From IMG/VR virus record IMGVR_UViG_3300020179_001316, positions 1 to 22,777 of that record: 22,777 nt of DNA. One strand, given 5' to 3'. Origin of the DNA: a virus. The notes under the pieces were generated by a model. The model was given only the letters and a program-made list of their open reading frames with translations, searched no databases and was not told the DNA's origin. The position numbers were made by a program, and so were the translations under genes. This document shows positions 5,313 through 22,450 of this stretch, in pieces. Each line of letters begins with the position of its first letter. The stretch's first letter is position 1.

Positions 5313-7454
5313 TTATCCTTTGAAATGTTTGATGTAAGCATCAGGTTGTTCGGTTCTCATCACATTTAAAGCCTCTGAAAATGTGATCCCTTTGGCCTTC
5401 TTGATTTCATTTACTTGATCAATAAAGCTGATTTCTTGTGCAGTGCTGGCATGTCCTTTTTCAGAAAGATTGATGGCTTGATTTGCCTTTCTTTCACTGA
5501 AGGATTGCCAGATAGCTGGGAATTTGTCTTTGATATCGTAGGCTGATTCAACTGCTGAAATCTCACTAGGTGTGATCTTGCCAGTGTTGAGAAGGCCATC
5601 AACAACAAGCTTTCTTTCAGCTTGATGTTTTTGAGCGGTCAAAGCCTTCACTTGCTCAGACAAAGATGTGACTTGTGCATTTAGCTCATTCATCAGTTGA
5701 GCTTGTGCCTTTTCAGATAAAGCGGTGGCTTCAGACATTTTCTTGTCATCATCTTCCATCATCTTTTTATCTTCTTCTGCCATCATCTTTTTATCTTCTT
5801 CTGCCATCATCTTCTTCTCCTCTTTCTTGGCATATTCACCATCAAGATTTGCTTTAGATTCGCCTTCTGATTCGTCTTTGGTAAGCTCATCATTCTCAGA
5901 CTTTAAGCCTTCCAACTGAGCTTCTAGTTGCTTGACAAGTTGATCTTTTTCTAGTACCAAAGCCACTAGTTGATCAGCTGTCATAGCCTTTAGTTCTTCT
6001 GGATTCATGTTTGATTTCTCCATGAGTAAAACACGACTTATTTTATTTTTAGATTGAGCTGGTCTAGCCGTCAAGGTAACGGCTTGAAGTTGAGCGAAAC
6101 CGATTGGTTTTGGATCATCTTCCCTTGCATAAATATCACCTACTAAAAATTCTGGTGATGGATATAAAACGCCTTCGCTAGCTTTCACTAGATCGAGACC
6201 TGCTTGAGTATATAGAGGTTTTACATAAAGTGCATCATCTTTTACATATACATCAGATATTTCACCATATGCCATAGATTGAGCTGGATCAGTTGGCCCG
6301 TTATCCATAAAGGGAGATGATTGATGATTCCAATCGATGATGACTGGATCTTCATTGAGCCTTGCTTTGAATACTCTTACCATCTCAGAGAGGATTTGAG
6401 GAGTGACATCTTGAATCGTCTTGCCATTGATCCTTGAGTTGACCTTACCCACAGAAAGCACCTTAATGTCTGATCCTGGATATAAAGCAATTTCTCCCAA
6501 CCTGATTCTTTCTCTAAATACCTTAATGTCAGTACGATTGGAGGACGGCAAGGAAGATTCCGACAATGCTTTTTCATTTTCATTTAATTGCTCTGACATC
6601 TCTTTGTATTTATCCCATAGATCTTTATCAGCTGTTGATCTTGTCTTTCCACCAGTGACAAAAGAATATACTCTTGCCCTTGACCACGCCGCCTGAGTTG
6701 CTCCAACTCGATGCCCACTAGTTGCCCATGCTTCAGCGCCTCTTCTGTGCACTTCTGCTAAGATGCTTCTAGGTATATCGCTGATTTTTGCCGCTGCTCT
6801 AAGAAATTCATCAGCACTATTTCCATTCATCTCTTCTCTGACTTTATCAGCGAATTCTGTCTTGGAGTATTTGCTTTTCCTCTTAGTGCCTTTTTCATCA
6901 CCTGGCAATGGAGAGTAATCAGTCTTTTTATTATCTTTGCGATCTTTGATCTCTTTTTCTCGATCGCCTTTAGTTCCATAAGGTGATCCAGTCAAATACT
7001 TCTTTGGCACATCAGCCAATTCAGTTGACTCAGTGAGAGTCTTTTCTTTCTCATCAGCCCTCTCCATTTGTGCTAAAATTTTCTTTGCCCAAGTGAAGCC
7101 TGCATCACCTCCCCAACCATCCCAAGCCTGCCGGCCTTTTCCATATTCTTCCCAAGTTGAGCCCTGCTTGTCGACTTCGTGTCTTGTGAAATAAGCAACC
7201 ATTCTTTTAATGGTCTCTGGTGATAGGCTGACTCCATTTGATAAATCTCTTGCTCGAGCAATACCCACCGCCGTCATACCACGCTTTGAAGGTGGTTGCT
7301 CAGCTCGTTTCTTTAGTGCTCTGATCGCTGCGTCTCTTACCCCTTGAGGTGGAGTAAAATCAATTCCATCATATTTTTTAGGAGCATTGAGATAAGCGCC
7401 CACGCGTCTATTCATCAATCTTTGTTTTGCCAAAGAGATTTGTTTTTCATTCAT
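5313..7454 (-). CDS. Prohead protease (Mu I-like) fused to scaffold, with long N-terminal extension
   Basis: A 713-residue protein with at least three parts. Residues 1-110 form a basic domain ending in a Trp-rich EEYGKGRQAWDGWGGDAG stretch. Residues about 190-295 carry a second helical domain (SKTEFADKVREEM to RVYSFVTGGKTRSTAD) of a kind seen in phage structural polyproteins. Residues about 305-480 resemble the Mu I head-maturation protease: a Val-Ile-Ile-Asp-Trp-Asn-His motif followed by a Leu-Tyr-Pro-Ser-Pro-Glu segment. From 480 onward lies a highly charged coiled-coil scaffold with Glu/Lys/Met repeats. A Mu I protein alone is about half this length. The start overlaps the portal stop by 4 bases. 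The whole should act inside the prohead and be cleaved and lost on maturation. Confidence 0.75.
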   Translation of the reverse strand: MNEKQISLAKQRLMNRRVGAYLNAPKKYDGIDFTPPQGVRDAAIRALKKRAEQPPSKRGMTAVGIARARDLSNGVSLSPETIKRMVAYFTRHEVDKQGSTWEEYGKGRQAWDGWGGDAGFTWAKKILAQMERADEKEKTLTESTELADVPKKYLTGSPYGTKGDREKEIKDRKDNKKTDYSPLPGDEKGTKRKSKYSKTEFADKVREEMNGNSADEFLRAAAKISDIPRSILAEVHRRGAEAWATSGHRVGATQAAWSRARVYSFVTGGKTRSTADKDLWDKYKEMSEQLNENEKALSESSLPSSNRTDIKVFRERIRLGEIALYPGSDIKVLSVGKVNSRINGKTIQDVTPQILSEMVRVFKARLNEDPVIIDWNHQSSPFMDNGPTDPAQSMAYGEISDVYVKDDALYVKPLYTQAGLDLVKASEGVLYPSPEFLVGDIYAREDDPKPIGFAQLQAVTLTARPAQSKNKISRVLLMEKSNMNPEELKAMTADQLVALVLEKDQLVKQLEAQLEGLKSENDELTKDESEGESKANLDGEYAKKEEKKMMAEEDKKMMAEEDKKMMEDDDKKMSEATALSEKAQAQLMNELNAQVTSLSEQVKALTAQKHQAERKLVVDGLLNTGKITPSEISAVESAYDIKDKFPAIWQSFSERKANQAINLSEKGHASTAQEISFIDQVNEIKKAKGITFSEALNVMRTEQPDAYIKHFKG
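5733..5820 (-). repeat. 24-bp tandem repeat coding for Lys/Met/Glu-rich scaffold octapeptides
   Basis: Two exact 24-bp units (5757-5780, 5781-5804) are flanked by partial copies. They code for an eight-residue AEEDKKMM repeat in the scaffold part of the protease-scaffold protein. The period is 8 residues and not the 7 of a canonical heptad. Copy number may vary by slippage. Confidence 0.8.
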
Positions 7455-10794: not shown

Positions 10795-12191
10795 TAGTGG
10801 CTCCTCATTGCCTTGATGTGTGATTGCACAAGATCGATCTTCTTTTTGACCGTCAAAGAAGTGGATGGGATTGGCTTATCTGGCAATATCTCACTATCAC
10901 GCCAAAGCCAATTGATGACATCATAGCGTAAGGCGTCTAGTGGATCTTCCTTCCCGTCTTTCTTTGGCATCTCTTTGCCATCCCAAGCATAGGATAAGAT
11001 CGCTTTTCTGAATGAGTTGCCTTGAGCTGATCCACCTTTATCCCAAACTTCTTTAGTGCATAGAATTCGCCTTTGGTGGATAAGCCGTTTGACTCTTTGA
11101 ACGCCGTTTAAGATGTCGGTTCGTATTGGATCAGTTGACCACCTAAAAGGCATACCAATCCCCCCTTGAGCCGGTGGCTTAGCCAGCTCATGGAAGGCAG
11201 ATAGAGCAGTGCGATCTGATCTAGCTGAGCCGGCTTTATCACCTGATGCACCATCAAGCAAGATACGGCTGGGGTAGTGTTTAGCCAGCTCCCTAGGTGC
11301 GGCAATCTTTAAGATCTCTTTGGCAAGATCTGACAAAGTGATTTCTTGAGGATTGATTTCAGCACAGATGACTTCAGCATTTAGAGACGGATCATGTGCC
11401 AAGATCAAGACTGAAGGCTTTCTAAAGCCAAAGTCAACCACAATTCTTGCACTCATAGAAGGCTGATACTGCCAATCGTCTATGATGTGACTTAGTGTCC
11501 ACTCACTAAAGACAACACCTTGAGGAGGCTTTGGCTGATTTTCTACCATTGCAAGGCGTTCGGCTTCTGGCAGGTTCTTGACTGCCTCAAACCATGCTTC
11601 AGATAGGTTTGCCTTATTCACATGACTTGCATAGAAGATCGGTGAGCATCCGGCTTTCTCTGCAAAGTCTACCCACCAAGCTCCCCAAACTGGCAGGCCA
11701 ACCATAACCAGCTTTGGAAGTGGACCAGATCGAAGACGGCCTAAAGTCTTCTGAGCAACCTCTTCGGATAGAGTTTGACATTCATCAATCAACGCAAGGC
11801 CTGAAGTTATGTTAAGGCCTTCAAGTGGATTGTGCGTTGCGTCTCTTGTGCCTGGTCTGAAATATGATCTGCACCAAACGATATGACCATTTGGAGCCGT
11901 CCATTTGCCTTCTTGCTGGTGGTATATCCAACCATAAGGCACAAGCCATTTCTCAATTTCTGGACCTAAAACCGATCGATATCGTGGCGCTGTGTCGGTG
12001 ATCAAAAGAGATGATTTATTTGGATGAATGCTTGACCAGGTCCACAATGCAAACACAAGCGCCGAAGTCTTGCCACTCCCCCATCCAGCTCTAACTGCAA
12101 TAAATGCATCCTGAGAATAGATCAATTTATCAATCAGATCTATCTGCAAAGAATTGAGTTTGAGCTCGATATCAATCTTCTTCATCTTCAA
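10794..12191 (-). CDS. terL: Terminase large subunit
   Basis: A 465-residue packaging motor. Walker A is AGWGSGKTS at 35-43, Walker B is LALIDE with D136 and E137. The RNase H-like nuclease domain starts with IVVDFGF (D253), continues with a second acidic strand LLDGASGD near 308 and ends with the acidic DPLDALRYDVINW near 425. These are the expected ATPase and nuclease motifs of TerL. It drives ATP-dependent packaging through the portal and cuts the concatemer. It overlaps the small subunit by 20 bases and the methyltransferase by 1 base. An alternative ATG lies two codons inside (12185). Confidence 0.93.
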   Translation of the reverse strand: MKMKKIDIELKLNSLQIDLIDKLIYSQDAFIAVRAGWGSGKTSALVFALWTWSSIHPNKSSLLITDTAPRYRSVLGPEIEKWLVPYGWIYHQQEGKWTAPNGHIVWCRSYFRPGTRDATHNPLEGLNITSGLALIDECQTLSEEVAQKTLGRLRSGPLPKLVMVGLPVWGAWWVDFAEKAGCSPIFYASHVNKANLSEAWFEAVKNLPEAERLAMVENQPKPPQGVVFSEWTLSHIIDDWQYQPSMSARIVVDFGFRKPSVLILAHDPSLNAEVICAEINPQEITLSDLAKEILKIAAPRELAKHYPSRILLDGASGDKAGSARSDRTALSAFHELAKPPAQGGIGMPFRWSTDPIRTDILNGVQRVKRLIHQRRILCTKEVWDKGGSAQGNSFRKAILSYAWDGKEMPKKDGKEDPLDALRYDVINWLWRDSEILPDKPIPSTSLTVKKKIDLVQSHIKAMRSH

Positions 12192-16760: not shown

Positions 16761-17633
16761 TTACTTTAATTTCTCATAATCCATCTCAGAGATAACTTTT
16801 TTTGAGAGACCTGAATCACACAATCCCCAAGTAAGACAGCCGCTTAAATACTCCTCTTCAAATAGCTCCATTTGATCGTCATTTTTGAGAGACCAGTCAA
16901 GCACCTCATCAACTGGACCACGCTTGAAAAAAGAGTATTGAGCATCTTTTCTTCCCAGATCTTTGGCAATTTGCTTTACATCCTCTTCAAGATTTCTGAT
17001 CAGATCAAACCGCTCTGGTTGTTCATGATAGGCATGTTTGATTTCTGCCTTTCTTGAGAAGATGCATGGAAAACAGCCGACTCTTGAAAAGCCTCGTGTA
17101 TAGAGTGGATTGGGAGCAACATTGAAACGCTTATGAATGGCAACAACATCCGCCACCTTCCAATCAATCAGAGGCCTCCAGATTGTACTTTCATCTTTTT
17201 CCTCGAATTCGCCTAGTGTTGATCTTGCTTGACTCTCATCTCTTCTGATGCCTACTGCACTGACTGGCTTCTTTCGGTGCAGTGCTCTGACTTCATCCAT
17301 GTATTCAAGCTGGGGGGTAACTTTGAGCGTGAGCGTACAAGTGCGAATATTGCCAGTAGGAAAAAAGACTTTACTCTTAACCATCTCCTGAAAGCCACCT
17401 TGATCAGTCTTGAAAAATCTCTCATTCTTGAGTCTGCGAATTGGCTTCTTGAGCACTACTTTTTCAAGGTAGTCTAAATATTCGTAAGTTTCTTCATGTT
17501 CCCATCCGGTATCGCAAAACACTGGCTCAAAGTCTAAGCCTTGATCAATGAGAAATAAAGCCATAGCGGTTGAGTCTTTGCCACCGCTAACATTGGCAAC
17601 AAGTGGCCTGTCTTTTAAAAAGTCTAAATTCAT
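16761..17633 (-). CDS. PAPS-reductase/DndC-like ATP pyrophosphatase
   Basis: A 290-residue protein of the adenine-nucleotide alpha-hydrolase (PP-loop) superfamily. The PP-loop SGGKDST is at 16-22. Later come RTCTLTLK (Cys99), VGIRRDESQAR, IWRPLIDW and a GCFPC pair (Cys187, Cys190). The family activates a substrate with ATP; cysteines may hold a metal or Fe-S cluster. Relatives include PAPS reductase and DndC, but DndB/D/E and sulphate-assimilation partners are absent, so neither reaction can be assigned. The start lies 1 base after the loader stop, with AAGG upstream. The gene is flanked by 18-bp direct repeats, a sign of insertion. Confidence 0.75.
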   Translation of the reverse strand: MNLDFLKDRPLVANVSGGKDSTAMALFLIDQGLDFEPVFCDTGWEHEETYEYLDYLEKVVLKKPIRRLKNERFFKTDQGGFQEMVKSKVFFPTGNIRTCTLTLKVTPQLEYMDEVRALHRKKPVSAVGIRRDESQARSTLGEFEEKDESTIWRPLIDWKVADVVAIHKRFNVAPNPLYTRGFSRVGCFPCIFSRKAEIKHAYHEQPERFDLIRNLEEDVKQIAKDLGRKDAQYSFFKRGPVDEVLDWSLKNDDQMELFEEEYLSGCLTWGLCDSGLSKKVISEMDYEKLK

Positions 17634-17634
17634 T

Positions 17635-18930
17635 TCATTTGCCTTTTTGAGTGAGTAAAATTGTTGTATTTGAAAAACACGCTTTAAATCGATTTAAATC
17701 ACTCTTTGGCTGTGAAGGTATAGGCAAGTGATTTAAATCGTTTCTAGATGCTAAAATCAAGCATCCTTTGAAAGAGTTTGCTAGCTCAATAAACTGATCG
17801 ATTGTCAATTCAAATAATGGATTGAGTCTTGACGCCATAAAATCATCAATGCAAATGATATCAAACTTTGACAGCAGATCACCAACTGAGGGAATTGGCT
17901 TGTTTTCCGCTTTGGCCTTGTCATATTCAGATTTCCTCCATCGGTCCAGCTGGTCAAGAGTGCCATAAAAAAATCTTCCTACTTCATGAAGCCGGCCGGC
18001 AAATCGTCTTTCTTCTGCGATACGCTTTAAGAGACCAGTCATGAGGTGAGTCTTGCCTGTGCCACTTGCTCCAGTGATGAAAACTTTTAGGTTTTGATCT
18101 TTAGTCATGGAAGTCAAACCATTGATTTGATCTTGAGTCAGCCGGCTTGAATTGAAGTTGTCTAGGTGCATACTTCTATGCTGATCAGTGAAATGACTTG
18201 TTGCCAGCTGCTTAGATATAACATTGATCCTAGATGTCTCTTTGTCAATCTGCGTCACGTCTAGCAATGAGTAACATGTACCGTCATTGCGATTTGACCA
18301 ATCAGCAGGAGCATCTTGAAAATCAGCAATCAAACGGCCGTCTTTGATTTTCATTTTGTTTTCAATCATCGACCACGCTCCGGCCTTTTCTTTTACGTAG
18401 TTTTCTTTAGTTTCATAATTAGTTTCATAATTAGTTTCATATATATATGATTCTACCTTTTTGGGTATGTCGATTATACCCATTTGGGTAGTTTCGATTA
18501 TACCCATTTGGGTAGTTTCGATTATACCCATTTGGGTAGTTTCGATTATACCCATTTGGGTATAATCCGCATTTGTCGAACTTGCAATCATGTTTTTAAA
18601 GTCAATCGTTCTTCTCCAGTATCTTTCCACCACAATTGGCATGATCTTGAATTCTGTTTTGCTTATTCTTTTTCTCTTTTGGATCAATCCAGTTGCGCAA
18701 AGTTGATCGATTGACTTTGTGATCACACGCTCAGAGATACCCATGACAGAGGCCAGATCAGAGTAAGTGCATTCAAAGGTCATGTCTTGGCTGGATGTCT
18801 CAAACTCGTAAAACTCAATCAATCGATACATCAAAGCAAATCCATAACTGACTGATTGAAGGATGGGACATCTGAGAAAGTTGCCAATGATAAATTGAAA
18901 ATTGTCAAATCTTGCGTTTTTTAGTTTCAT
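17635..18930 (-). CDS. Replication initiator-helicase loader (winged helix + AAA+)
   Basis: A 431-residue two-domain protein. Residues about 50-105 form a winged helix (CTYSDLASVMGISERVITKSIDQL then a basic wing), as in phage O-like initiators. Residues 124-154 are four near-identical octapeptides (TQMGIIET) and 162-177 a Tyr/Glu/Asn repeat. Residues about 265-431 are a DnaC-like AAA+ domain with Walker A GASGTGKT (287-294), Walker B FDIICIDD (356-363) and a sensor-like LILASRN. It probably recognises origin DNA and loads the DnaB encoded divergently next door. AAGG lies 9 bases before the ATG. The repeats are also DNA elements (see origin). Confidence 0.8.
   Translation of the reverse strand: MKLKNARFDNFQFIIGNFLRCPILQSVSYGFALMYRLIEFYEFETSSQDMTFECTYSDLASVMGISERVITKSIDQLCATGLIQKRKRISKTEFKIMPIVVERYWRRTIDFKNMIASSTNADYTQMGIIETTQMGIIETTQMGIIETTQMGIIDIPKKVESYIYETNYETNYETKENYVKEKAGAWSMIENKMKIKDGRLIADFQDAPADWSNRNDGTCYSLLDVTQIDKETSRINVISKQLATSHFTDQHRSMHLDNFNSSRLTQDQINGLTSMTKDQNLKVFITGASGTGKTHLMTGLLKRIAEERRFAGRLHEVGRFFYGTLDQLDRWRKSEYDKAKAENKPIPSVGDLLSKFDIICIDDFMASRLNPLFELTIDQFIELANSFKGCLILASRNDLNHLPIPSQPKSDLNRFKACFSNTTILLTQKGK
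17639..17656. repeat. 18-bp direct repeat, right copy
   Basis: Identical to 16722-16739. Here it codes for the end of the helicase loader (LLTQKG region) and supplies AAGG for the PAPS-reductase-like gene. Confidence 0.85.
18405..18452. repeat. AT-rich 12-bp tandem repeats (candidate DNA unwinding element)
   Basis: AGTTTCATAATT occurs at 18409-18420 and 18421-18432, with a third variant copy at 18433-18444 leading into an ATATATAT run. Nearly all A/T, it encodes the Tyr-Glu-Thr-Asn repeat of the loader and directly adjoins the palindromic iterons, the position of the AT-rich melting region in lambda ori. Confidence 0.6.
18454..18567. other. Putative replication origin: palindromic iterons inside the loader gene
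   Basis: The perfect palindrome TACCCATTTGGGTA (arms TACCCA/TGGGTA) occurs at 18477-18490, 18501-18514, 18525-18538 and 18549-18562, exactly 24 bp apart. A degenerate fifth (TACCTTTTTGGGTA) lies at 18454-18467. The last full copy extends to arms of 11 bases (18544-18567). The 24-bp period keeps the reading frame and yields the octapeptide repeat. Iterons next to AT-rich repeats inside an initiator gene match the lambda ori plan. Confidence 0.65.
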
Positions 18931-18954: not shown

Positions 18955-18983
18955 TTGACAAGTAACTAAATCTAATATACAAA
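18955..18983 (+). promoter_or_regulatory. Promoter for the regulator-dnaB unit
   Basis: TTGACA (18955-18960) with TACAAA 17 bases later (18978-18983), or TATACA after 15 bases (18976-18981). It is embedded in a 15-bp motif (18947-18961) repeated with one mismatch at the second promoter (20766-20780). Confidence 0.55.
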
Positions 18984-19001
18984 AGTAAAAAATAATTTCA
19001 A
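18974..19001 (-). promoter_or_regulatory. Promoter for the loader operon (overlaps the divergent promoter)
   Basis: On the minus strand TTGAAA (18996-19001), 16 bases, TATATT (18974-18979). Its -10 overlaps that of the plus-strand promoter, so RNA polymerase could not occupy both at once. Confidence 0.5.
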
Positions 19002-19028: not shown

Positions 19029-19253
19029 ATGACAAAAAAAATGTCTGTATTACTTTTAAAGACCGGCAAGACCGCCACAAAGATTGCTGAAGAAACTGGC
19101 ATCACCAGAATGAGACTTTATCAAATCATGAAAGAAGACGCTCACGCACCGATGAAACTTGCGCTAAAGCTTGAGGCGACAACAAAAATCTCTCATCAAT
19201 TCTTTCTATATGCAGCGCCAACTTGCTATCAGTTTGTTGGAGATATCCTATGA
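19029..19253 (+). CDS. Small HTH regulator (Cro/YdaS-like)
   Basis: A 74-residue protein. The HTH spans about residues 14-35 (KTATKIAEETGITRMRLYQIM), followed by LALKLEATTKISHQFF, the usual end of Cro/YdaS-like domains. CAGGAG lies upstream of the ATG. It is encoded just after the divergent overlapping promoters, so control of that region and of its own synthesis is likely, as for Cro. Its stop overlaps the dnaB start (ATGA). Confidence 0.7.
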   Translation: MTKKMSVLLLKTGKTATKIAEETGITRMRLYQIMKEDAHAPMKLALKLEATTKISHQFFLYAAPTCYQFVGDIL

Positions 19254-20743
19254 CTGAATATCGCAGTTTTCAAAATCCAGAAGATGAATACAAAGAAGTC
19301 ACTTTTGATTACATCATGAGTCAATCATGGCAAGAGATGAATCGAGATCGCCAGCTTCTTCTTCAAAGCAGAATTAGATTTGTGCTCACTCAACTTCTTT
19401 GGCCTTCGTCTATTACATCTACTCAGCCAGATGGATCACTTGCGTTTTCTTTAGAGCAGCGCAGCGAGGCCGTAAAGATGATGATCTTCAAGATGATCCC
19501 AGATCCAAGAATTTTGATTGATCATACATGCATCTGCATTTTCAACATTTGCGTTGAGCTAAGGCAATCCCAAAGGCCAGTAAATTTTGAAAATGTCGTT
19601 GATGTATATCATCGCACTCATCAAGAGAGAAGAAAGACGCTCAAAGAAAGCATGCTAGCAGAATATATTTGCAGTTGGATTGCTGAGAATTTGGATGTCT
19701 GCCATGTCTATTATGGAGGACCGGCGATGATCCATGTTGTTGAAGATCATATCAATAAGATCTATGATGATTTCATCAGCCTGAGACTATCCCAGATCTA
19801 TAGATATAAAGAGATTGCACTGGCTCATGGCTATTCTCTCAAAGAGTGCGATGATATCTTTCTTGATAATGAAAGAAAAGTCAAAGACTTAAAGCCAAAG
19901 CCAAATATGGGATTATCTCAACAAGTACAATCGTTGCTTGAGTCTATGAAAGATTTTAAGCAAGGCTTATCCAGTGGATTGAGAAACCTAGATGATATCA
20001 CAAAGGGATGGAAAGACGGCTGTTTATATGTAGTAGCCGGCAGGCCTGCGATGGGAAAGACCGCCGTTTCTCTTACTTTTGCTTTGGCCTCAATGCAGGC
20101 TCAACCAACCAAGAAGACCTTGTTTTTTTCTCTAGAGATGCCAGATATCCAACTGATAAAGAGACTTGCGAGCAACTGGAGTGGCATCGCTCAATCAGTC
20201 TTTGATCAACCATTCGATCAATTGGCTGGCCACACACAAGAGAAGATTGCTGAGACTCTCTTTGAAATCAAATCAATGCCCTTAGAGATCATTGACCGAG
20301 CAGCCTTATCAATCGATGAGATGAGATCGATATGTGACATCAAAAAGAGAAGTGAAGATATTGGCCTTATTATTGTTGACTACCTCCAGCTGATGACATC
20401 TCCGGCCATGATTAGAGAGCAAGAGATTTCTCAGATCAGTAGAGGATTAAAGGCGCTGGCCAAAGAGATTGGCTGTCCAGTCATTGCACTAGCTCAGATC
20501 AATAGAGGCGTTGAGCAGCGAGCAAATAAAAGACCGCTATTGAGTGATCTTAGAGAGTCCGGAGCAATCGAGCAGGATGCTGATGTAGTGATGATGCTCT
20601 ATAGAGAATACGCTTATGATGAGCATGCATCTGAGACCGATATGGAAATCATTGTGACAAAAAACCGTCATGGAGAGTGCAAGACTGCACATGTTGAATT
20701 TTTGGGAAGTTGTCAAAGAATTTCAGATAGACAGCACTTTTAA
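19250..20743 (+). CDS. dnaB: Replicative DNA helicase DnaB
   Basis: A 497-residue helicase from the ATG at 19250, with GGAG 7 bases upstream and a 4-base overlap with the regulator. The C-terminal RecA-like domain shows GRPAMGKTA (about 264-272), FFSLEMP, LIIVDYLQLM, LAQINRGVEQR-x-x-KRP, SDLRESGAIEQDADVV and TKNRHGE, the full DnaB set. The N-terminal part (to about 220) keeps the DH-x-C-I-C-I-F-N-I and FISLRL features of the DnaB N-domain but begins with about 85 residues unlike the usual start. It unwinds the fork and presumably is loaded by the divergently encoded AAA+ protein. Confidence 0.93.
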   Translation: MTEYRSFQNPEDEYKEVTFDYIMSQSWQEMNRDRQLLLQSRIRFVLTQLLWPSSITSTQPDGSLAFSLEQRSEAVKMMIFKMIPDPRILIDHTCICIFNICVELRQSQRPVNFENVVDVYHRTHQERRKTLKESMLAEYICSWIAENLDVCHVYYGGPAMIHVVEDHINKIYDDFISLRLSQIYRYKEIALAHGYSLKECDDIFLDNERKVKDLKPKPNMGLSQQVQSLLESMKDFKQGLSSGLRNLDDITKGWKDGCLYVVAGRPAMGKTAVSLTFALASMQAQPTKKTLFFSLEMPDIQLIKRLASNWSGIAQSVFDQPFDQLAGHTQEKIAETLFEIKSMPLEIIDRAALSIDEMRSICDIKKRSEDIGLIIVDYLQLMTSPAMIREQEISQISRGLKALAKEIGCPVIALAQINRGVEQRANKRPLLSDLRESGAIEQDADVVMMLYREYAYDEHASETDMEIIVTKNRHGECKTAHVEFLGSCQRISDRQHF

Positions 20744-21565: not shown

Positions 21566-22450
21566 ATGGCTTCTCAAAAATTATTAGACTCTTTGTCAGA
21601 TATCAACGCAATCGCTGACAGCATGGATCAACTTGTAAAACTCGCCGGCTATCTCACTGGTGGCACCAACTGGAGTGCTCAACAACTTGTGACTGCCTAT
21701 CTTTCTTATGGCATGATGCATGGCTGGAATATCGCACAAACAATGGAAAAGATGAATGTCATTAAAGGCAAGATCACTTATCAAGCCGCCACCATGTTTG
21801 GCATTGTGATTGCTTCTTCTAAGTGCAAGTCATGGAAGGTGTTGACCAATTCCGATGTTGAATGCTCCCTTGAATTTGTTCGTGCTGATAATAATCAAAA
21901 GTACACAGTACAATTCACCATTGAAATGGCACAGCGTCAAGGCCTTACAAATAATCGCCAGTGGCAGACAATGCCAAAGCAAATGCTCATGGCCAGATGT
22001 AAATCAATGGCAGTCAGAGACGTCTTTGGTGATGTGATCAGTGGTTATGATGCAGTTGAAATCGCTGATAGCATGGACATGTCAGAAGAAGAAAGACTTG
22101 AAATCTTGAATAGTGAGCTTGATACTCAAATCACAACAAGACAAACTGCACCAGCTAAGCCAAAGGCTCCCGTCAAGACTCAGCCAATGCCAGTGCAACC
22201 GGTGCCAGTGCAACCATCTCAGCCAGTGCAACCGGTGCCAGTGCAACCAGTGCAACCTGCTCAGCCAGTGCAACCGGCACAAGTACCACCAGCACAAAGC
22301 AAATCGCCACAACCTGTGCCATTCCCAAGTGAGCAGAAAGCAGCTATCACTCAGCGCGCGTACAATGACACATCAAGAAAAGAGTGGATAGATGATGATA
22401 TGGATGAAGATGATGCTAGAGATTGGAAAGCGTCATGGGGAATTAAATAA
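21566..22450 (+). CDS. RecT-like single-strand annealing protein
   Basis: A 294-residue protein. Residues 25-175 carry the RecT pattern: a helix at GGTNWSAQQLVTAYLSYGMMHGWNI, MNVIKGKITYQAATMFGIV, a Cys-containing strand (SDVECSLEFVRAD), FTIEMAQRQGL, WQTMPKQMLMARCKSMAVRDVF, and a GYDAVEIAD end. RecT-type proteins anneal complementary single strands in phage recombination. Residues about 198-255 are a Pro/Val/Gln repeat linker, leading to an acidic, Trp-containing C-terminus that may bind SSB. No exonuclease partner is seen in the window. AGGAT precedes the ATG. Confidence 0.75.
   Translation: MASQKLLDSLSDINAIADSMDQLVKLAGYLTGGTNWSAQQLVTAYLSYGMMHGWNIAQTMEKMNVIKGKITYQAATMFGIVIASSKCKSWKVLTNSDVECSLEFVRADNNQKYTVQFTIEMAQRQGLTNNRQWQTMPKQMLMARCKSMAVRDVFGDVISGYDAVEIADSMDMSEEERLEILNSELDTQITTRQTAPAKPKAPVKTQPMPVQPVPVQPSQPVQPVPVQPVQPAQPVQPAQVPPAQSKSPQPVPFPSEQKAAITQRAYNDTSRKEWIDDDMDEDDARDWKASWGIK
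22184..22290 (+). repeat. Imperfect tandem repeats (PVQP linker) within the recT-like gene
   Basis: CCAGTGCAACCGGTG-like units recur at 12-18 bp spacing and code for Pro-Val-Gln-Pro repeats. Probably a slippage-prone flexible linker. Confidence 0.75.

Follow-up and report, generated by a model that had tools for sequence, protein, structure and literature searches.

The analysed window, a stretch of 22,777 nucleotides that constitutes positions 1 to 22,777 of the viral record IMGVR_UViG_3300020179_001316, carries on its minus strand a 431-aa open reading frame (17635-18930) that appears to fuse a replication initiator to a helicase loader. Residues 1-105 (18616-18930, minus strand) are modelled as a winged-helix domain and predicted to bind DNA (AlphaFold2 pLDDT 80, pTM 0.71); the best Foldseek matches of this domain were winged helices of ArsR, MarR, CodY and centromere-binding proteins (E ~2e-3), the ArsR/MarR/CodY-type folds being dimeric. 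Residues 216-431 (17638-18285, minus strand) correspond to an AAA+ domain of the DnaC/IstB/DnaA clade and contain the Walker A and Walker B motifs typical of the core of DnaC-like loaders. Walker A reads GASGTGKT (residues 287-294; 18049-18072, minus strand), with G287, G290, G292, K293 and T294 invariant among homologues, and Walker B reads ICIDD (residues 359-363; 17842-17856, minus strand) and is likewise invariant. The AAA+ domain matched the NCBIfam models for Hda (1.2e-7) and IstB (3.4e-7), both below the curated cut-offs, as well as the DnaC-like helicase loader family phrog_3277, and its low-confidence structural model resembled E. coli DnaC in the DnaBC complex (6qem_G, Foldseek prob 0.95); the VIA-align results for the full model were filled by winged helices and say little on the AAA+ part. 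At the level of the whole family, phrog_50 ('DnaC-like helicase loader') was matched by six of the six members tested (best 9.5e-10), some members additionally matched phrog_678 ('replication initiation O-like', 2.7e-5), and most matched phrog_270 ('replication initiation protein', 3.6e-5). The locus had been described in the original prediction as a helicase-loader gene; the loader-like part stands, although the product is not simply a loader, since an initiator-like winged helix is fused to the loader-like AAA+ domain, and the two regions are joined in every homologue that covers the whole gene.

Divergent from this gene lies the phage's own DnaB-type replicative helicase (19250-20743, plus strand; Pfam DnaB_C 3.4e-82), which is present in all five relatives tested at 80-93% identity, and a small helix-turn-helix protein is encoded between the two genes (19029-19253, plus strand). 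A promoter-like match on the minus strand upstream of the initiator gene (TTGAAA-16-TATATT, 18974-19001) might, together with the divergent helix-turn-helix gene, control transcription through the putative origin described below; promoter-like sites were no commoner than in shuffled sequences. The gene at 16146-16751 matches the homing endonuclease family PHROG 314 (5.8e-16) and adjoins a PAPS-reductase-like gene (16761-17633).

Scans of IMG/VR identified 16 contigs that carry the initiator-like gene, representing seven distinct sequences that are 68-97% identical (the window, L001, L003, L004, L009, L026 and L029). No relative of the whole protein was detected among INPHARED phages (tblastn, 1e-5), among plasmids, which gave one weak partial ATPase match, or in a protein search of GTDB genomes; the C-terminal domain alone found two weak Streptococcus phage loaders in INPHARED (tblastn, E 0.07). 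When the invariant part of the repeat unit described below was used as a DNA pattern, only homologues of the initiator gene were recovered from IMG/VR. A search of GTDB genomes for the iteron pattern gave one match, which lay inside a Bacteroides mutL gene without a tandem array and was rejected as chance, as was the best match of the array in a blastn search of phages, a Flavobacterium phage gene beside an amidase.

Anatomy of the repeat array and the AT-rich repeats

The linker between the two domains, which is predicted to be unstructured (full-length model of low confidence, pLDDT 46), contains an array at 18449-18562 that is made up of four identical units of 24 bp (TACCCAAATGGGTATAATCGAAAC on the minus strand, the last of the four ending in CGACAT) and a degenerate fifth. 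The repeats are real and far above chance, with the top tandem-repeat score in the window (193). The 14-bp cores of the four identical units lie at 18549-18562, 18525-18538, 18501-18514 and 18477-18490, spaced exactly 24 bp apart and in frame, so that each is read as part of the octapeptide TQMGIIET. Four copies at this spacing had been predicted correctly; they are not perfect palindromes but interrupted ones (TACCCA-AA-TGGGTA), in which 6-bp arms flank a non-palindromic AA/TT centre and 12 of the 14 bases are symmetric. At iteron 1 the symmetry reaches 18544-18567, with 11-bp arms. The degenerate fifth core (18454-18467; TACCCAAAAAGGTA) also exists as predicted, but at 23 bp from iteron 4, and it therefore falls out of the octapeptide frame that all units had been said to share. 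A pattern search of the whole window found the perfect TACCCANNTGGGTA core nowhere outside the array, and a second array was not seen in the window.

Adjoining the array and inside the same gene are the three AT-rich 12-bp repeats that had been foreseen (TTAGTTTCATAA; 18407-18442, minus strand TATGAAACTAAT type), of which two are identical and the third has one difference. The 40 bp of lowest stability in the gene lie here, within the top 0.16% of the window, and the repeats are proposed as a melting element; their position, low stability and the absence of synonymous change reported below agree with the properties of an AT-rich unwinding element. The heptamer GAAACTA is common to the iteron spacers and the AT-rich repeats, in the same orientation. 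All seven of its copies in the window lie inside the initiator gene on one strand, and in three long relatives 6 of 6, 7 of 8 and 6 of 6 copies lie inside the gene. Exactly 57 bp lead from the last GAAACTA of the iteron spacers to the first of the AT-rich repeats in six of the seven distinct homologues, and this distance is constant despite differences in unit number and in unit spacing (24 or 33 bp). In L029, several units have GAAAATA or AAAAATA in place of the spacer heptamer.

Selection on DNA versus peptide within the linker

The comparison of the distinct homologues revealed that the number of synonymous differences falls sharply across a stretch of codons ~113-188 (18367-18594), where 0-0.25 of the codons for the same amino acid differ, compared with ~0.3-0.5 over most of the gene. 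The proposed origin is thus wider than the 18405-18567 given originally. The synonymous minimum coincides with the array and the AT-rich repeats, and the non-repeated flanks are constrained as well; in the AT-rich repeats (codons 161-176), synonymous change was found in none of 83 comparisons. Inside the iterons, pS was 0-0.20 as against 0.38-0.74 in the rest of the gene, whereas pN was 0.16-0.37 inside and 0.06-0.18 outside (window versus L003 to L029). Because repeat units can be homogenised within a genome, the array was also collapsed to one unit plus the downstream flank; the reduction persisted in six pairs (Fisher p 7e-5 to 0.02), the p-values being descriptive only because the pairs share ancestry and are not phylogenetically independent. 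A feature of the protein would have its third positions drifting and its amino acids held, and the opposite was found; these comparisons show, as far as relatives can, that selection on the array stretch acts on the DNA and not on the peptide. Retention of the octapeptide with synonymous loss of the palindrome, which had been named beforehand as the pattern that would speak against an origin, was not seen among the relatives: the octapeptides change and the DNA plan stays.

Another 24-bp repeat in the window served as a control. The coding repeat at 5741-5824 varies between phages both synonymously and in unit number (one relative is short by one unit) while its peptide is kept, which is the pattern expected of an ordinary coding repeat. 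Its unit encodes KKMMAEED, and it lies in a gene (5313-7454) upstream of the capsid genes. Within the initiator gene itself, a weaker second dip in synonymous divergence (0.13-0.23) was observed near the 3' end (17671-17802, codons ~377-420); the protein is also very conserved there, and the dip could reflect recombination between clades or another cis element.

The fifth unit reflects the same constraint: in every homologue it repeats the DNA in another reading frame and follows the changes seen in its neighbours. One and the same 19-nt stretch (TACCAAAAACACTACAATC) yields TKNTTI in L004 and L009 where the unit is in frame, and PKTLQS where it forms the last unit. Compared with the units of its own clade, the last unit matched at 16, 16 and 19 of 19 positions (16 of 19 in the window), and this likeness exceeds the expectation from the peptide alone (P=0.0003 for the window, 0.004 and 0.001). 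A repeated peptide cannot explain a fifth unit that is shifted in frame, to judge from these alignments.

The symmetry of the units was followed across clades in the same way. The L003 unit is TACCA-AAAA-TGGTA, with 5-bp arms, and unit 2 of L009 is TACTG-AAAA-CAGTA, whereas most units of the L004 clade read TACTG-AAAA-CACTA (one mismatch) or TACCA-AAAA-CACTA (three mismatches); many units of this clade (L004, L009, L026 and L029) are imperfect dyads in which 2-4 of 5 pairs match (2-5 of 5 across the clade), a point that counts against the origin proposed below. Arm positions have changed pairwise, positions 4 and 11 being C-G or T-A and positions 5 and 10 being C-G, A-T or G-C. The perfect and near-perfect dyads exceed what random synonymous codons would give for the same peptide (P=0.003-0.025), whereas the dyad of the TKNTT unit is no better than chance. 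On this evidence dyad symmetry is maintained, if not strictly, and the phase of the units together with the invariant spacer is the stronger constraint.

A putative replication origin inside the initiator gene

A replication origin of the lambda/SPP1 type, placed in the linker of the phage's own initiator gene, is the best, and a very probable, explanation of these observations. It is favoured because the DNA is under selection, the fifth unit is shifted in frame, the arms change in pairs, and AT-rich repeats lie at a distance of 57 bp in six of the seven distinct homologues; because a winged helix and a DnaC-like AAA+ domain are combined in one protein beside a phage DnaB; and because the order of elements is that of lambda ori, the plan resembles that of SPP1 oriL, and the control repeat behaves oppositely. 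The relatives thus lend strong support to the origin proposed in the original prediction through DNA-level selection, the frame-shifted unit and symmetric arm changes, to which the least stable DNA beside the array and the pairing of winged helix and DnaC-like domain in one protein can be added. As in lambda, the repeats are found inside the initiator-like gene, in seven of seven distinct homologues, with the encoded protein as their presumed binder. Taken together, the comparisons between relatives show that evolution has preserved the sequence, spacing, dyad symmetry and AT-rich repeats of the stretch over its peptide.

In the proposed mechanism, the N-terminal winged helix would bind the five interrupted palindromes, probably as dimers, and strain or bending imposed by the assembled nucleoprotein would melt the AT-rich repeats alongside; the phage DnaB helicase would then be placed on the exposed strand by the AAA+ domain at the C terminus of the same protein. 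A more speculative extension, which we consider rather doubtful, is that GAAACTA is read twice, once in the duplex as part of the iteron and once in the single strand as a guide that sets strand and direction for the fused loader, with one polypeptide doing the work of both lambda O and P on an origin in its own linker.

Cumulative GC skew, which had been suggested as a check, gave no consistent pointer: it turns at the site in one 31-kb relative (maximum at 26,299; array at ~26.07-26.2 kb), and no turn at the site was seen in the window or in two other contigs. No DnaA box was found near the array, the only one in the window lying at 11614, and no IHF-like site was found at the array, the nearest match being at 18115. 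Phage origins need neither a DnaA box nor an IHF site.

DNA-level constraint alone does not name a function, and the array could instead be a cis-acting binding site for the encoded winged-helix protein that serves, for example, as an autoregulatory operator or as a partition or centromere-like site; among the structures that Foldseek matched to the winged helix are repressors and the centromere-binding protein AspA of pNOB8. We consider this improbable. The array lies ~370-480 bp into the gene, far from its start, and has no other copies in the window; moreover, the constraint runs unbroken into the AT-rich repeats, which show zero synonymous change, and the presumed binder carries a fused helicase-loader domain.

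Much less probable is a function of the strand as an mRNA or single-strand hairpin (an attenuator, an RNA stability element or a single-strand initiation signal) in place of duplex sites. The strand does fold far better than its shuffles (z -7.8 as RNA and -8.0 as DNA), and the antisense strand scores as weak terminator-like hairpins, but any palindrome that is repeated will fold strongly. In the L004 clade, several units with no more than 2 of 5 positions paired nevertheless keep their sequence, phase and synonymous constraint, the AT-rich repeats are conserved without a stem, and the array matched no Rfam family. Terminator-like hairpins scored on the plus strand were rejected as a by-product of the palindromes.

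It is scarcely credible that the array is no more than a coding tandem repeat of the ordinary kind, located in a disordered linker and homogenised by slippage and gene conversion: the linker is indeed predicted to be unstructured and the phage has other coding tandem repeats (5741-5824 and 22188-22292), but the unit varies from phage to phage in its amino acids and not at its synonymous sites, non-repeated flanks are constrained too, the control repeat at 5741-5824 behaves oppositely, and the frame-shifted unit together with pS below pN already contradicts it.

Comparison with known replication systems

The proposed origin was compared with characterized systems, of which lambda is the closest in arrangement. 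Gene O of lambda contains four inverted-repeat iterons, to which dimers of O bind, opening an A+T-rich region of 40 bp (PMC5043065, PMC7466680). The original prediction had set the present units apart from lambda as complete palindromes; this contrast is mistaken because each lambda iteron is itself an inverted repeat, an interrupted palindrome that binds an O dimer (PMC5043065, PMC7466680). Each iteron here is likewise an inverted repeat, imperfect in some units, as are those of lambda. In both cases the array sits within the coding sequence of the initiator, where it separates the DNA-binding part from the C-terminal part, consists of interrupted palindromes with an A-rich centre, and is flanked on the 3' side by an AT-rich stretch. 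The lambda record gives iteron spacings of 20, 24 and 23 bp, with the iterons in different frames, compared with 24, 24, 24 and 23 bp here, where the frames likewise differ. The two systems differ in unit number (five here, four in lambda) and in iteron sequence (TACCCA-AA-TGGGTA here, the TCCCTC-AAAAC-GAGGGA type in lambda). They also differ in the loader, which here is an AAA+ domain of the DnaC type fused to the binder and in lambda is the separate P protein, and in that the present phage brings its own DnaB. No similarity to lambda O or P was found with hhalign, in which shallow alignments and profiles were used.

The oriL of SPP1 is a second parallel, with repeats and a DNA unwinding element inside gene 38, the gene of the origin-binding protein (PMC6316719). 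At the present locus the putative origin repeats and unwinding element are likewise placed inside the gene of the predicted binder, and both phages encode a DnaB-type helicase (PMC6316719). SPP1 has the origin binder gp38 and the loader gp39 as separate proteins and a second origin, oriR; here a single 431-aa ORF carries both parts, as far as the domain matches indicate. What chiefly sets the locus apart from the lambda and SPP1 models is that initiator and loader are fused. No description of an origin binder fused to an AAA+ loader around an origin-bearing linker was found in the open-access literature searched, and phrog_50 may hold similar fusions.

The C-terminal part, an AAA+ domain with Walker A and B motifs, resembles E. 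coli DnaC and the phage DnaC-like loaders of phrog_50 and phrog_3277. DnaC itself is not known to have an origin-specific winged helix or to carry an origin in its own gene. Iteron plasmid origins (RK2, P1 and pSC101) are similar in that an array that binds the initiator lies beside an AT-rich element. Plasmid iterons usually lie outside the rep gene. Most of them are direct repeats without palindromic symmetry, to which monomers bind (PMC5043065).

The present analysis supplies a likely origin, with its anatomy, for a phage lineage in which relatives of the gene were not detectable among the annotated phages searched. It is also a clear example of how selection on DNA can be told apart from selection on protein within a single gene by comparison alone: within the array, third positions are frozen, amino acids drift, and the reading frame of one unit is shifted. 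Should the fused protein work as proposed, initiation could be reconstituted from two phage proteins, the initiator-loader and DnaB, plus the DNA, a simpler set than that of lambda, which uses O, P and host chaperones, or of SPP1, which uses gp38, gp39 and gp40.

Two further observations concern the protein. In L029 (IMGVR_UViG_3300047557_003114), and in this contig only, codon 109, located after the winged-helix region and before the iterons, reads TAA in frame, which could be a sequencing error, the mark of a broken copy, or a sign that the two parts are expressed separately. At the start of the predicted recognition helix, residues 66-68 (18727-18735 in the window) are SER in the window, L001 and L003 and TDR in the L004 clade and L029, in parallel with the change of the half-site from TACC to TACT. 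This is one correlated change and only a lead, and the symmetric half-site change between clades together with the change from SER to TDR would offer a direct test of the coevolution of binding specificity.
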